NCBI GenBank assembly: GCA_012728915.1
Contig: JAAYEC010000003.1
Span: 1-64,000, forward strand
DNA length: 64,000 nucleotides
DNA from: Deltaproteobacteria bacterium
Lineage (GTDB): Bacteria > Desulfobacterota > Syntrophia > Syntrophales > UBA2192
Direction of reading: 5' to 3'
The notes under the pieces are model-generated. The model saw only the letters and a program-made list of their open reading frames with translations, searched no databases and was not told the DNA's origin. Below, piece after piece: positions 25,564 through 33,878 of this stretch (the first letter of the stretch is position 1; each line of letters opens with the position of its first letter). The position numbers and the translations under genes were made by a program.

Positions 25564-25648
25564 GAAGTTAGGAAGAGCAGGAGTTATGAGGAGCGGATCA
25601 AGAAAGAATATTCTCCACCCACTCCACTCTGCTTAACTTCCTGACTTC
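25564..25648. repeat. Word-repeat quasi-palindrome, site C
   Basis: GAAGTTAGGAAG (25564-25575) faces CTTCCTGACTTC (25637-25648), complementary with one mismatch. The right arm overlaps the last codons of the TreZ-like gene. Confidence 0.7.
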
Positions 25649-27267
25649 TCAACTTCTGTCTGTTCGCCGTGCTTCCTCAGGTAGACCGCGCAGGAAAGGG
25701 GGGTGAGGCGAAGGGGGATGTCGCGGCCGTCCCCCCGCAGCAGCCCGGGCAGGGCGCTTCCCGGCCCGTCCCACCGGCGTTCGGCCGAATCGAAGCACAG
25801 CGTCCATGCGCCGCCTGGAACGGGCAGCGGCAGGCGCACCGCCTTCGTGCCGAAATGGAAGAGGACGATGAGGTCCGCGTCCTCTTTCCAGTATCTCAGG
25901 AGAAGGGCCCTCTGCCTGTCGTAGCCCAGCACGCCCATGCACTGCTTGTCCAGAAGACCGAGGCCGCGCAGCTTCTTGCGCAGCCGCACCAATTCGGCCG
26001 TGCAGGCAGGAGGCGCCTGATCCGGGAGCAGAACCGGAAGGGAAGGGGAAAGGAGCAGACAGGCGACCAGAAGTTTTCGCGCCTCGAAATTTCCGCGCCC
26101 CTGGTCCTCTGGCGCCGGAAGGGGTCGCGCGCGGACCATGAAGCGCTCCCCGGGCAGGATTCGTGATGTGCGGCCGTGCCGGTGCCGGCGGGCCGGCGAG
26201 TAGCCGCCGGAGCAGACGAATCCTTCGAGGAACGCTTTCTGGACGTGCTCGAGCCTGCCGAAATCGCCGCCTGTCGCCGAGGCGTCGTCGCCGCTCAGCA
26301 GGGCGAGCAGCGCCTCTTCGAAATCCGCGTTCCAGAGAGCATCGAGCCCGATTCCACCATCCTCCCGCCGTCGGATCAGCCGCGGGTCGTTTCGCGCGCT
26401 TCGACCAACGAGGTGCAGGGGCCGGCCGGCCCGCTTCGACGCGGACTGGACGGCCAGCCCCATTTCTTCGAGCAGCGGCAGCGGGGATGGGTCCGCGATG
26501 CCGTCTGCCGCGCCGAAGTCGAGAGTGTCGATGCGGTAGTCCCGGAACCACGACAGGGCGCAATCGATGAAAAACCGGCGGACCTCGTCGCTGACGGCGC
26601 CGTCCAGATTGAAACACCGGCTGCGGTCGGTGAAATAGGGCCCGAAGAATACGAGGGGCTCCCGCTCGATTCCGACTCCGAAAAGATCGACGGCCAGCAT
26701 CACCGCTAGGCGCCTTCGGTGGCAGGCATCGACGAGATGTGCCAGGTCCGCCGGCCCTCCCAGCGAAGAGGGGACGGAAAAGGGAAACCCCGGTGCAGGC
26801 GGGAAGCCCTGTTGCGGGCAGTCTGGAGCCAGCGGGACCCGCAGGGCGGTGAACCCGATAGCCTTCCACTCATCGAGGCGGGCCAGGATCTCGCTGGCGG
26901 CGGGATGGCTTCCGGCGGGTTCCGCGATGATGTAATCGCCAAGGGGCGGTCCGCGCCAAGGGATCCTGTTCGAAGGGGGGCGAAGATCGCAGACTTGGGA
27001 GGGTCCGGCGCCGCCCGCGGGCTGGGATCGCGAAGCCGGGTCGGGCCGCTCGATCAGCCCGTCGAGACGATACACATAGAGCGCCCCCGGCCGGATAACG
27101 CTGATCTCGACGCCGTGATATCCTCCGCCAAGCCGCCGCATCGGGATGAGACGGCCGTCGGGGGGCAGGATGCGCAGGTCAACCCTCTCTGCGGCCGGCG
27201 CCCAGATCAGGAAAGAGGTTTTCCTTTTTCCCCTGCGCACGGCACCCAGCGGCAGCGTTCTGTTCAT
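25633..27267 (-). CDS. TreZ-like GH13 protein lacking catalytic residues
   Basis: This 544-residue protein aligns by motif order with maltooligosyltrehalose trehalohydrolase (TreZ). It has FLIWAPAAERVDL (CBM48-like), RPDPASRSQPAGGAGPSQV, SLGGPADLAHLVDACHRRRLAVML, PYFTDRSRCFNLDG and FLEGFVCSGGYSP. The catalytic positions have changed. The strand-4 nucleophile Asp is Gly252 (LDFGA instead of LRLDA). The strand-5 acid Glu is Arg289 (LVGRSARND instead of LIAESDLND). The NH of DVVYNH is lost. It is probably an inactive glycan-binding homologue. ATG at 27267 is 93 bases after marR on the same strand. Its last residues come from a word-repeat. Confidence 0.8.
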   Translation of the reverse strand: MNRTLPLGAVRRGKRKTSFLIWAPAAERVDLRILPPDGRLIPMRRLGGGYHGVEISVIRPGALYVYRLDGLIERPDPASRSQPAGGAGPSQVCDLRPPSNRIPWRGPPLGDYIIAEPAGSHPAASEILARLDEWKAIGFTALRVPLAPDCPQQGFPPAPGFPFSVPSSLGGPADLAHLVDACHRRRLAVMLAVDLFGVGIEREPLVFFGPYFTDRSRCFNLDGAVSDEVRRFFIDCALSWFRDYRIDTLDFGAADGIADPSPLPLLEEMGLAVQSASKRAGRPLHLVGRSARNDPRLIRRREDGGIGLDALWNADFEEALLALLSGDDASATGGDFGRLEHVQKAFLEGFVCSGGYSPARRHRHGRTSRILPGERFMVRARPLPAPEDQGRGNFEARKLLVACLLLSPSLPVLLPDQAPPACTAELVRLRKKLRGLGLLDKQCMGVLGYDRQRALLLRYWKEDADLIVLFHFGTKAVRLPLPVPGGAWTLCFDSAERRWDGPGSALPGLLRGDGRDIPLRLTPLSCAVYLRKHGEQTEVEKSGS

Positions 27268-27360: not shown

Positions 27361-27885
27361 TTACGCCGGCTTTCCGGCGCGCCGCTTCTTCGGCAGGGAC
27401 TCTTCCTTGCGGGGTCTGCCGCGGCGCCGCTTGGGGGCTGGGCCCTTCGCGTGGGTCTCCAGGACCTTGACGATTTTCGAGAGGTTGACGGCGAGGCGTT
27501 TGAGCTTCTTGTCCGGCAGGGCCTCCAGCCCGGCTAGCATCGGGTCCTGGGCCGAGACCGGCGTCTTCCGCAGGGCGCCTTTTCCGGCGCGCGTGAGCTT
27601 GAGGTTGACCTGCCGCCGGTCCTTCTTGGACGGGGTGCGCTCGACGAGGCCATGTCCCTCGAGCCGATCCACGATGCCGACCACCGTGGCCGGGTGGAGG
27701 TAGATCCGCCGGGCGAGTTCCGAGATACTGAGGTTTGGCGAATCGGCCAGTGTCTTCATCGCGAGCAACTGCGGCCCCGTGATCCCCGTCTCCTTGCGGA
27801 TTTTTTTTGAGCGGGTCTGGGACAGTTGCATGAGCTGCCTCAGGGAGGCGTTTACGTCTGCGAGATGGGGTCGGTCGGCGGACAT
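27361..27885 (-). CDS. MarR-family regulator with basic AT-hook-like tail
   Basis: This 174-residue regulator has a winged helix: GITGPQLLAMKTLADSPNLSISELARRIYLHPATVVGIVDRLEGHGLVERTPSKKDRR spans the recognition helix and wing. The C-terminal 25 residues are strongly basic and contain RRGRPRK, an AT-hook-like GRP core, unusual for MarR proteins. ATG at 27885 with AAAAGGAG upstream is preferred over the open extension. Its promoter contains a near-palindrome between -35 and -10, suggesting autorepression. It likely forms an operon with the TreZ-like gene and is divergent from the branching enzyme. Confidence 0.85.
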   Translation of the reverse strand: MSADRPHLADVNASLRQLMQLSQTRSKKIRKETGITGPQLLAMKTLADSPNLSISELARRIYLHPATVVGIVDRLEGHGLVERTPSKKDRRQVNLKLTRAGKGALRKTPVSAQDPMLAGLEALPDKKLKRLAVNLSKIVKVLETHAKGPAPKRRRGRPRKEESLPKKRRAGKPA

Positions 27886-27921
27886 GGCTTCTCCTTTTCG
27901 ACTGAACGGGATTTGCTTTTT

Positions 27922-27950
27922 CGTATACAAATAATTTGTTCGTTTGTCAA
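27922..27950 (-). promoter_or_regulatory. marR promoter with embedded operator
   Basis: On the minus strand TTGACA (27950-27945) and TATACG (27927-27922) have a 17-base spacer. Inside lies ACAAA-N3-TTTGT (27927-27939), the likely MarR binding site. Occupancy would block RNA polymerase, so autorepression is inferred. Confidence 0.7.
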
Positions 27951-27980: not shown

Positions 27981-28008
27981 TTGCACAAAAACGCATTTGC
28001 GGTATGAT
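27981..28008 (+). promoter_or_regulatory. Promoter for the branching enzyme gene
   Basis: TTGCAC (27981-27986) and TATGAT (28003-28008) with a 16-base spacer, 50 bases before the start codon. It starts about 40 bases from the putative MarR operator. Confidence 0.55.
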
Positions 28009-28058: not shown

Positions 28059-30116
28059 ATGGCAACGCAACAGGGATCGAAACCTCCTTCACCGGACCGC
28101 GAAACGACGCTTGCGGAGAGGCTCGTCGCGGCAGACCCACTGCTGGGCCCCTGGCGGGAAACGATCGAGAGGCGCCTGCGGCGGGCGGCCGAGTTGGAGG
28201 CTCGGCTCACGGGAGGGCGGATGACCCTTGCCGATTTCTCCAGCGGCCATGAGTATTTCGGGCTTCACCGCCGCGGCGGCGAGTGGGTGCTGCGCGAGTG
28301 GGCCCCGAACGCCACGCGGATCGATCTCGTGGGCCAGATGACCGACTGGAAGGAGCGGTCCGGATTTGCCCTGGATCGGCTTGACGGTGCCGGGGGCGTC
28401 TGGGAGGTCCGGCTGCCGGGCGATGCCATGGCCCACGGTGATCTGTACCGACTGAGGGTCCGCTGGAACGGGGGCGAGGGGGAGCGAATCCCCGCCTGGG
28501 CCCGCCGCGTCGTCCAGGACCCTCACACGCTAATCTTCAACGCCCAGGTCTGGGAGCCGGAAACTCCCTATCGCTGGACGCAGGAGGGTTTCCGCTGCAG
28601 AGCGCAGGCCCCGCTCATCTACGAGGCCCACGCCGGCATGGCGCAGGAGAAGGAAGGCGTGGGCACCTGGCGGGAGTTCACGGAAACGGTCCTCCCGCGG
28701 ATCGTGCGCGCGGGCTACAACGTCCTCCAGCTCATGGCCGTCCAGGAACATCCCTACTACGGCTCCTTCGGGTATCAGGTAAGCAGCTATTTCGCCGCCT
28801 CTTCGAGATTCGGCACACCGGAGGATCTCAAGCAGCTCATTGACGCCGCCCATGCCGAAGGTCTCTGCGTGATCATGGACCTCATCCACTCGCACGCCGC
28901 CTCCAACGAGGTGGAGGGGCTCGGCCGGTTCGACGGCACGCGCCACCAGTACTTCCACCGCGGGGCCCGGGGCCGGCACGAAGCGTGGGATTCGCGCTGT
29001 TTCGACTACGGCAAACCCCCGGTCCTGCACTTTCTGCTGTCCAACTGCCGGTTCTGGCTCGACGAGTACCGCTTCGACGGCTTTCGCTTCGACGGCGTGA
29101 CGAGCATGCTCTACCTGCACCACGGCCTGGGGAAAGCCTTCCTGTCCTATGCCGACTACTTCGACGGAAGCGTCGATGAAGACGCCCTGGCCTATCTGGC
29201 GCTGGCGAATCGCGTCATCCATGACGTCCGCCCCGATGCCCTCACGGTTGCCGAGGATGTGAGCGGTATGCCCGGGCTGGCCGTCCCCGCCGCGCAGGGA
29301 GGGACAGGGTTCGACTACCGCTTTGCCATGGGCGTCCCCGATACCTGGATCCGGCTGCTGAAGGAGTGCGCCGACGAAGACTGGCCCCTGGGGCACCTGT
29401 GGCACGAGCTCAACAACCGCAGGCGGGACGAGAAGACGATCAGCTACGCCGAGTCGCACGACCAGGCCCTCGTGGGAGACAAGACCCTCATCTTCCGGAT
29501 GATCGATGCAGAGATGTACACGGACATGAGCGTCTTCCGGCAGAGCATCCGCGTAGACCGGGGGGTGGCCCTCCACAAGATGATCCGCCTCGTGACCCTG
29601 GCCACGGCGGGGAACGGCTACCTGAATTTCATGGGGAATGAGTTCGGCCACCCGGAATGGATCGACTTCCCGAGGGAGGGCAACGGGTGGTCCTACAAGT
29701 TTGCCCGGCGGCAGTGGAGCCTGGCCGATGACGGGACGCTGCGCTATGGGCGGCTCGCCCGATTCGATGCGGATATGATCGGTTTTGCCCGGTGCTCAAA
29801 TCTCCTCGGGTCCGGCGATCCGCATCTCCTCCACGAGCACAACGAGTACAAGGTCCTCGCCTTCGAGAGGGCGGGGCACCTCCTGGTCTTCAACTTCCAC
29901 CCGTCACGGTCCTACGACGGCTACCGGGTCGACGCAGCGCCCGGCAAGTACCGGCTCGTCCTCGACAGCGACGGCGAGGTCTACGGGGGCCACGGGCGCC
30001 TCGGACCCGACGAAGTCCACTTCACGCAACCGGACGGGAAGGGGCCCTTCACGCGCCACATCCTAAGCCTCTATCTGCCCACACGCACCGCCCTCGTGCT
30101 TCGAAGAATCGACTAG
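28059..30116 (+). CDS. 1,4-alpha-glucan branching enzyme (eukaryotic-type GH13_8)
   Basis: This 685-residue enzyme introduces alpha-1,6 branches in glycogen. A CBM48 region (REWAPNATRIDLVGQMTDW) leads into the barrel. Motifs are APLIYEAHAGMAQE, GSFGYQVSSYFAASSRFGTPEDLK, and VIMDLIHSHAASN. The nucleophile is Asp345 in DGFRFDGVTSM, the acid Glu399 in TVAEDVSGMP, and YAESHDQALVGDKT completes the site. MGNEFGHPEW is typical of the eukaryotic-like branch. All catalytic residues are present, unlike the divergent TreZ-like neighbour. Confidence 0.92.
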   Translation: MATQQGSKPPSPDRETTLAERLVAADPLLGPWRETIERRLRRAAELEARLTGGRMTLADFSSGHEYFGLHRRGGEWVLREWAPNATRIDLVGQMTDWKERSGFALDRLDGAGGVWEVRLPGDAMAHGDLYRLRVRWNGGEGERIPAWARRVVQDPHTLIFNAQVWEPETPYRWTQEGFRCRAQAPLIYEAHAGMAQEKEGVGTWREFTETVLPRIVRAGYNVLQLMAVQEHPYYGSFGYQVSSYFAASSRFGTPEDLKQLIDAAHAEGLCVIMDLIHSHAASNEVEGLGRFDGTRHQYFHRGARGRHEAWDSRCFDYGKPPVLHFLLSNCRFWLDEYRFDGFRFDGVTSMLYLHHGLGKAFLSYADYFDGSVDEDALAYLALANRVIHDVRPDALTVAEDVSGMPGLAVPAAQGGTGFDYRFAMGVPDTWIRLLKECADEDWPLGHLWHELNNRRRDEKTISYAESHDQALVGDKTLIFRMIDAEMYTDMSVFRQSIRVDRGVALHKMIRLVTLATAGNGYLNFMGNEFGHPEWIDFPREGNGWSYKFARRQWSLADDGTLRYGRLARFDADMIGFARCSNLLGSGDPHLLHEHNEYKVLAFERAGHLLVFNFHPSRSYDGYRVDAAPGKYRLVLDSDGEVYGGHGRLGPDEVHFTQPDGKGPFTRHILSLYLPTRTALVLRRID

Positions 30117-32387: not shown

Positions 32388-33878
32388 TCAACCCTTTTTC
32401 GGCGCCGCTTCGGCGTCGTCCCCGGAAGGCCTTCGCAGGACCGTCTCCAGCTCCGCGATCCGCGCGGGCGGGCCGGCGACGTGGCGCAGGATGGCCTCGT
32501 GCGTCGCGTCCCCATAGTGGACCGGTTCGCCCTTCTGCCTGTGCTCGTGAACCCAATCCGCGTTCATATCGAGGGCGGCGTAGGGGATCTTCGCCTCCCG
32601 GGCGGCCCAGGCGATGTTCTGACCGTAGACGCCAAACCCGACGATGATCAGGTGGTCCTTCTCGTGAAGCTGCGCCGTCCCCGGCGACGGGACGCTGCCT
32701 CGCTTGAGGCGCCGGGGCAGCGGCAGACGGGCCGCGGCGTCGGCGACGGGATGGGCGATCCGGAACAGAAAGGGCGTTGCCATCATCGTGATGACCGAAT
32801 AGGCCAGAAACTCCTGGATGATGGCCTCCGAGAGCAGACCGTACGTCCTTCCCGCCTCGGCCAGGATGAAGGAGAATTCGCCGATCTGGCCGAGGCAGAG
32901 GCCCGCCAGCGCAGCGACACGGATCGGCAGGCCCACGAACAGGAAGGCCGCCGCGGCGGCGAGGCTCTTGATGAGCATGATCCCGGCGGCCAGAAGGAAG
33001 ATGGTGCCCGGCTCGTCGCCGAGGAAGCGCAGATCCGGGAGCATGCCGACGGAGACGAAGAAAAAGCTCGCGAAGACGTCGCGAAAGGGGATGACGTTGC
33101 CCATGGCCTGGTGGCTTTATTCGGACTCGGAGATGAGCAGGCCCACCAGGAACGCCCCGACGGACAGCAAGAGGCCCGCGACGTGGGTGAGCCACGCCAC
33201 AGCCAGGACGATCATGACGATCGTCAGCTGGAACAGTTCCCGGCTGCCCGTCCGGGTGACCCGGGACAGCGCCCAGGGGACGCCCCACTTGGCTGCGCCG
33301 ACCAGGGTCAGGATGACCCCGATCTCCTTCCCCAGCAGGGCAAGCAGGCCGTCGGACGATCCCTCGGCGACCCCGCCAAGGAAGGGGAGCAGCAGCATCA
33401 TGGGAACGACGATGAGGTCCTGGTAGATGAGAATGCCCAGCGCGCTGCCCCCGTGCGGCGTTTCCACCTCGGCGCGGTCCTACAGGAGCCTCATGACGAT
33501 GGCGGTGCTGCTCAGGGCCGTCAGGAAACCGATGAAGATCGACTGTCCTGCGGGCCGTCCGAGACCGTGGGAGATGGCCGCCGCGATGAGCAGCGTGAGC
33601 AGCACCTGCAGGGTTCCGCCCAGCAGCGCCGTCCGGCGCAGCTGCACGAGGTTTCGAAAGGAGAACTCGAGGCCGATCGTGAAGAGCAGCGCAACGACCC
33701 CGATTTCAGCCAGCTTCATCACGGCCTCCGGGTTGCCGACCAGCTTGAACCCGTAGGGGCCGGTCAGGAGGCCCGTGAGGAGGTAGCCCACGATGGTCGG
33801 CAGCTCGAGCCGGTGGCACAGGTAAAGCACGGCGGCGGACAGCCCAATGATGATGACAATATCGTCCAGAAAGAACAT
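32388..33878 (-). pseudogene. CPA2-type antiporter interrupted by two stop codons
   Basis: Read from ATG at 33878, the frame encodes a paralogue of the preceding antiporter. It stops at TAG (33480-33482), exactly where the neighbour has Gln in MKLLQDRAEID, and again at TAA (33117-33119), where the neighbour has Tyr in SESEYSHQA. Each is a one-base change, and the three pieces stay in one frame. It also ends inside the TrkA-N domain after YGDATHEAILRHV, so the RCK half is incomplete. A recent pseudogene is most likely; sequencing error cannot be excluded. Confidence 0.88.

Follow-up and report, generated by a model that had tools for sequence, protein, structure and literature searches.

A trehalohydrolase-like protein without its catalytic residues, very probably a maintained pseudoenzyme, encoded beside a branching enzyme gene in a Syntrophales genus

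The window analysed in our study, the whole stretch of 64,000 nucleotides at positions 1-64,000 of contig JAAYEC010000003.1 (Deltaproteobacteria bacterium; Syntrophales; UBA2192; GCA_012728915.1), carries a gene for a homologue of trehalohydrolase (TreZ), here called pseudo-TreZ, together with a marR gene and a divergent glgB gene (Table 1). The arrangement of glgB opposite marR and pseudo-treZ was found in 6/6 genomes. A convergent lspA lies next to pseudo-treZ, and the order lspA-ileS follows in those genomes where the stretch was recovered. The pseudo-treZ frame, described as long and intact over 544 residues in an earlier sequence-only reading, is indeed open, with an ATG start, 544 codons and a GGAGG Shine-Dalgarno sequence upstream; the start is aligned in most relatives and the ribosome-binding site is conserved. 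No transmembrane segment or signal peptide was apparent by eye in the protein. Elsewhere in the window, a second copy of a KefB-type antiporter gene (32388-33878, minus strand) lies beside an intact one and has two in-frame stops, with about 190 C-terminal residues missing; one congener (G006) holds an intact version of this second copy.

Table 1. Features of the pseudo-treZ locus, in coordinates of the window
Feature	Position	Strand	Basis
Pseudo-TreZ, homologue of trehalohydrolase with a dead active site, 544 aa	25633..27267	-	Reading frame, TIGR02402, 3vge, alignments
CBM48-like N-terminal domain, residues 6-70	27058..27252	-	Pfam PF02922, 25.4 bits, above cut-off
C-terminal beta domain, residues 420-535	25663..26010	-	Omega 0.154
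Region I: YNH of active enzymes changed to L195-F196-G197, of which the L and the F are the same in 6/6	26677..26685	-	Alignments
Beta-4 site: R-x-D-x-x-H of active enzymes replaced by D250-x-G252-x-x-D255, invariant in 6/6	26503..26520	-	Alignments
General-acid position: E replaced by R289; R/H/P across the clade	26401..26403	-	Alignments
Region in which NHDQVGN (third catalytic Asp) is lost	26104..26127	-	Alignments
Deletion, in all six, of about 70 residues that follow strand 8 of the barrel (FMGEEYGE...)	point at 26010..26025	-	Alignments
MarR-family regulator, separated by 93 nt from the downstream pseudo-treZ	27361..27885	-	PF01047 E=3e-18; synteny 6/6
Candidate MarR operator: near-palindromic 15-bp box, TTATTTGTATACGAA, overlapping the marR -10	27920..27934	-	Six-genome alignment; one exact copy per genome
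Predicted marR/pseudo-treZ promoter, TTGACA-17-TATACG	27922..27950	-	Six-genome alignment
Predicted glgB promoter, TTGCAC-16-TATGAT	27981..28008	+	Conserved, six-genome alignment
Glycogen branching enzyme, eukaryotic type, catalytic residues intact (FRFDG, AED, SHD)	28059..30116	+	Sequence, structure matches, synteny

The divergent neighbour had been read as a functional branching enzyme, and its predicted catalytic apparatus is intact, with a match to human GBE1 (4bzy) at E=1e-206. The enzyme matches the structures of human GBE1 and plant BEI at E ~1e-200, against E ~1e-56 for bacterial GlgB structures, and it scores below the NCBIfam cut-offs for bacterial GlgB. A transcript shared by marR and pseudo-treZ, proposed in the same reading, is supported as a prediction by the same-strand layout, the 93-nt gap, in which no terminator-like site was found, and the conserved predicted promoter; the stricter promoter scan did not include this TTGACA-17-TATACG promoter among its predictions. 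The 15-bp box is identical in all six genomes, none of which holds a second exact copy, and this suggests a MarR circuit dedicated to this locus. The predicted glgB promoter starts about 30-50 bp beyond the box.

Pseudo-TreZ matched the NCBIfam family for TreZ, TIGR02402, at E=2e-68, with a score of 231 bits that lies below the curated equivalog cut-off of 538.8 bits; four of its orthologues scored 224-243 bits and three active relatives 699-723 bits. The closest solved structures were those of the Sulfolobus solfataricus TreZ (PDB 3vge, E=3e-48), which a profile of the genus matched at E=3.5e-73, and a profile-profile comparison (hhalign) with active TreZs gave a probability of 100% and E=1e-128 over 529 columns. 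CBM48 was the sole Pfam domain above cut-off, DUF3459 was sub-threshold and the GH13 domain PF00128 gave no match at all. Pseudo-TreZ has the full-length homology of a TreZ but neither the equivalog score, the catalytic triad nor the TreY partner, so that the fitting annotation is TreZ-like pseudoenzyme and not trehalohydrolase. AlphaFold2 returned a mean pLDDT of 44.8 with three alignment rows and 54.9 with six rows that included branching enzymes, and Foldseek placed TreZ structures at the top for this low-confidence model (E=1e-23) with a TM of only ~0.3; the superposition was thus unusable and no conclusion here rests on the model.

The catalytic residues of the reference TreZ of S. solfataricus are D252, E283 and D377 (PMC3716775). 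Three independent alignments (phmmer, MAFFT and profile-profile) concur in placing the nucleophile D252 against Gly252 of pseudo-TreZ and the general acid E283 against Arg289, as the sequence-only reading had it, while the third catalytic Asp, D377, falls in a stretch without the HDQ motif. The region-I NH was likewise correctly called as gone, YNH having become LFG. An alternative alignment restoring an Asp and a Glu at the catalytic positions, which had been named as evidence that would speak against the reading, was sought with the same three methods and ruled out. The reading went too far, however, in finding all structural landmarks of a trehalohydrolase present: in addition to the lack of a PF00128 match, all six orthologues have lost the YNH and HDQVGN motifs, the QFPGxRNWGYDG loop, the TPWG insertion and about 70 residues after beta-8. 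Among 140 columns that are invariant in 18 active TreZs, the six pseudo-TreZs kept 50, replaced 43, deleted 16 and were mixed at 31. Judged from the alignment against the known barrel, counterparts of its eight strands appear to be retained, with the loops of the catalytic face as the part that was lost. Near beta-4 the clade has invariant carboxylates of its own, D250, D255 and D259, in the motif D-x-G-x-x-D-x(3)-D.

The genus is a group of uncultured anaerobes, and six of its seven genomes (the present one and G003-G007) yielded an intact pseudo-TreZ orthologue. Their aligned frames are free of internal stops, and all six share the change of D to G, the change of E to R, H or P and the absence of HDQ and YNH. 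A sequencing or assembly error in a single genome is ruled out by this agreement. In the seventh genome (G002), which is 77% complete, neither pseudo-TreZ nor glgB was detected, and a gap in the assembly is the probable reason for the absence of the locus. The three catalytic acids, both His and the Arg are kept in 30/30 relatives from the phylum, an active copy in a congener included, and none of them in the six orthologues. Four other TreZs of the order, outside the genus, hold all catalytic motifs (4/4), and among 155 genomes of the order the pseudo form was found in none besides those of the clade. No TreZ relatives were found in viral contigs, and among the plasmid matches listed all were below 40% identity, with no close pseudo-TreZ orthologue.

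Phylogenetic inference recovered the six pseudo-TreZs as monophyletic (support 100/100) on a long stem (0.52). The tree is unrooted, and in it the active TreZ of congener G003, which shares about 44% identity with pseudo-TreZ, joins the six (97/95). Single origin of pseudo-TreZ as a catalytically dead TreZ paralogue is well supported by these sequence comparisons. TreY scored above cut-off in G003 only, in which it belongs to a cassette mgtE-glgA-treZ-GH57-treY (G003:C144:259-10225); G004 and G006 have the same mgtE-glgA pair, but the three next genes of the cassette (treZ, GH57 and treY) are absent. The other five genomes with pseudo-TreZ lack both TreY and an active TreZ, which indicates that the role of pseudo-TreZ is independent of the TreYZ pathway. 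The simplest history that we infer is a duplication in the ancestor of the genus, after which one copy died and was remodelled and the active pathway was lost in most descendants, although the active cassette may instead have been acquired by G003.

Selection on the gene was strongly purifying, as found by the dN/dS comparison across orthologues that had been suggested as a check. A codon model gave an omega of 0.192, with lnL -7855.4 compared to -8219.9 at omega 1 (a gain of 364), and pairwise values among orthologues (Nei-Gojobori) were 0.27-0.37; for comparison, omega was 0.09-0.16 in active TreZs of other families, 0.058 in glgB, 0.082 in marR and 0.032 in lspA. The tightest segment, residues 201-325 (omega 0.128), covers the dead beta-4 to beta-6 face, followed by the C-terminal domain (0.154), and the first part of the barrel is loose (0.30). 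Constraint on pseudo-TreZ is almost that of active TreZ, except at the catalytic positions. The protein evolves fast, with 54-73% identity among orthologues compared to about 67-93% for neighbouring genes, as might be seen in a gene heading for loss whose frames are open by chance. We consider this most improbable, since omega is 0.19 and not 1, six frames are intact with start and ribosome-binding site conserved, and in neutral simulations the frame stayed open in 7/500 runs at 0.1 substitutions per site and in 0/500 at 0.2. Decay in relatives, the other finding that had been put forward as counting against the reading, was thus looked for and ruled out. Conserved catalytic residues are missing from a protein that is kept by selection, the losses are shared and of one origin, and there is little doubt that pseudo-TreZ is a maintained pseudoenzyme, as had been proposed. 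Between G005 and G006, pseudo-TreZ showed a dS of 0.67 and a dN of 0.22, compared to a dS of 0.22-0.27 and a dN of 0.04-0.06 for glgB, marR, lspA and ileS; this gene-specific excess possibly reflects allele replacement.

GlgA-like and phosphorylase genes occur in nearly all genomes of the genus, so alpha-glucan metabolism exists there. In G005, an assembly of 5 contigs that is 100% complete, no strong match to a GlgA-type GT5 was seen, with weaker GT5-like matches near a phosphorylase gene, and the genome retains glgB and pseudo-TreZ despite this. In the sister genus, genome G001 encodes the branching enzyme and no pseudo-TreZ, which means that the enzyme does not depend on pseudo-TreZ, and no tight co-evolution is visible between the two, glgB evolving far more slowly.

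A dead TreZ that is kept by strong selection, always beside the branching enzyme, probably contributes to glycogen metabolism in some way other than catalysis; both the linkage to glgB and the retained CBM48 point to alpha-glucans. We tentatively propose that it acts as a partner of the glucan or of the branching enzyme, a reading that in its full form we hold to be possible, at somewhat less than even chances. Pseudo-TreZ would use its CBM48, its C-terminal beta domain and the remodelled side of the dead barrel to bind alpha-glucan, the neighbouring branching enzyme or both, and would thereby tune glycogen branching, as the dead ISA2 does for ISA1 in plants; a physical partnership with the enzyme or with glycogen is suggested by this analogy (PMC12510319). 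The probably co-transcribed MarR may control pseudo-TreZ, setting its level via a candidate dedicated operator at the marR promoter. Gene neighbourhood is weak evidence for an interaction between pseudo-TreZ and the branching enzyme, and CBM48 domains do not always bind glucan, which counts against the partner role. The idea of a glycan sensor, offered in the sequence-only reading, is weakened in its simplest form, since pseudo-TreZ has lost by deletion the loops and residues with which TreZ holds maltooligosaccharide. That deletion also weighs against a sensing or co-regulatory partnership with MarR, in which pseudo-TreZ would bind a sugar or the regulator and adjust its own locus and perhaps glgB. 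Gene order and strand, kept across 6/6 genomes with a 93-nt gap, and the single operator-like box of a circuit that looks dedicated to the locus are in its favour, yet co-transcription alone does not imply contact and MarR proteins normally sense small ligands unaided; we regard this partnership as improbable.

It is also doubtful, slightly more so, that the protein is an enzyme again, its former active site rebuilt to use D250, D255 and D259 around beta-4 on a different substrate. The changes R to D and H to D that flank the dead nucleophile are invariant in 6/6, the most constrained segment lies here, and other pseudoenzymes offer examples of catalytic residues that have migrated (PMC10211241). 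However, the substrate loops are deleted, members of the clade have R, H or P in place of the general acid, and the position of the third Asp is not conserved either, which leaves these sites without a fixed pair of substitute acids. The broader version, in which the dead site became a new functional centre for a new activity or a small-molecule ligand within a one-locus MarR circuit, is about as improbable as the MarR partnership. That the fold is retained for something other than glycogen metabolism or regulation, for instance as part of an unrelated protein complex, is unlikely, if less so than these readings: animals have non-catalytic GH13 barrels as the heavy chains of transporters (4F2hc; PMC8537225), but pseudo-TreZ has no membrane segment or signal peptide apparent by eye and the linkage to glgB points to alpha-glucans. 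A decoy or inhibitory subunit of active TreZ or TreY is conceivable in G003, which has both the active treZ-treY cassette and pseudo-TreZ; this is very unlikely and is disfavoured as a general role, with TreY missing from 5/6 genomes, none of which has an active TreZ.

Pseudoenzymes have been much studied in eukaryotic signalling and far less among bacterial carbohydrate enzymes. Pseudo-TreZ arose once, one congener has an active sister paralogue, synteny with a branching enzyme is conserved and the regulator is apparently dedicated; with these features, the reason why selection keeps a dead glycoside hydrolase becomes directly testable. Such proteins also set an annotation trap, as they could pass for trehalose synthesis in genomes without TreY. 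If the rebuilt-centre reading were true, this would be a bacterial GH13 barrel with a complete change of function, beside a branching enzyme of eukaryotic type.

Among the papers listed on trehalohydrolase, none mentions pseudoenzymes. In the literature searched, nothing specific was found on bacterial glycoside-hydrolase pseudoenzymes, nor a dead TreZ lineage in bacteria with such a locus, although dead GH13 proteins such as ISA2 and 4F2hc mean that the kind of protein is already known. Compared to TreZ (TIGR02402; S. solfataricus 1eh9/3vgb and D. radiodurans 2bhu), pseudo-TreZ is alike in its full-length homology and in its order of CBM48, barrel and C-domain. It differs in the absence of the three catalytic acids, YNH, the Arg before the nucleophile, both His after beta-6, the loops of the active site and the stretch of about 70 residues that follows beta-8, and in the lack of TreY in 5/6 genomes. 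In the 4F2hc ectodomain, too, a GH13-type barrel is retained with none of the three catalytic acids left (PMC8537225), but this is an animal membrane protein of an alpha-glucosidase-like lineage and the heavy subunit of amino-acid transporters. ISA2, the non-catalytic plant isoamylase for which ISA1 has been demonstrated as the partner (PMC12510319), resembles pseudo-TreZ as a GH13 paralogue with changed catalytic positions that is kept by selection and associated with alpha-glucan synthesis, an association that the glgB linkage suggests for pseudo-TreZ. ISA2 is eukaryotic and of isoamylase (GH13_11) descent, whereas the best family for pseudo-TreZ is TreZ and its putative partner is indicated by linkage to glgB in 6/6 genomes.
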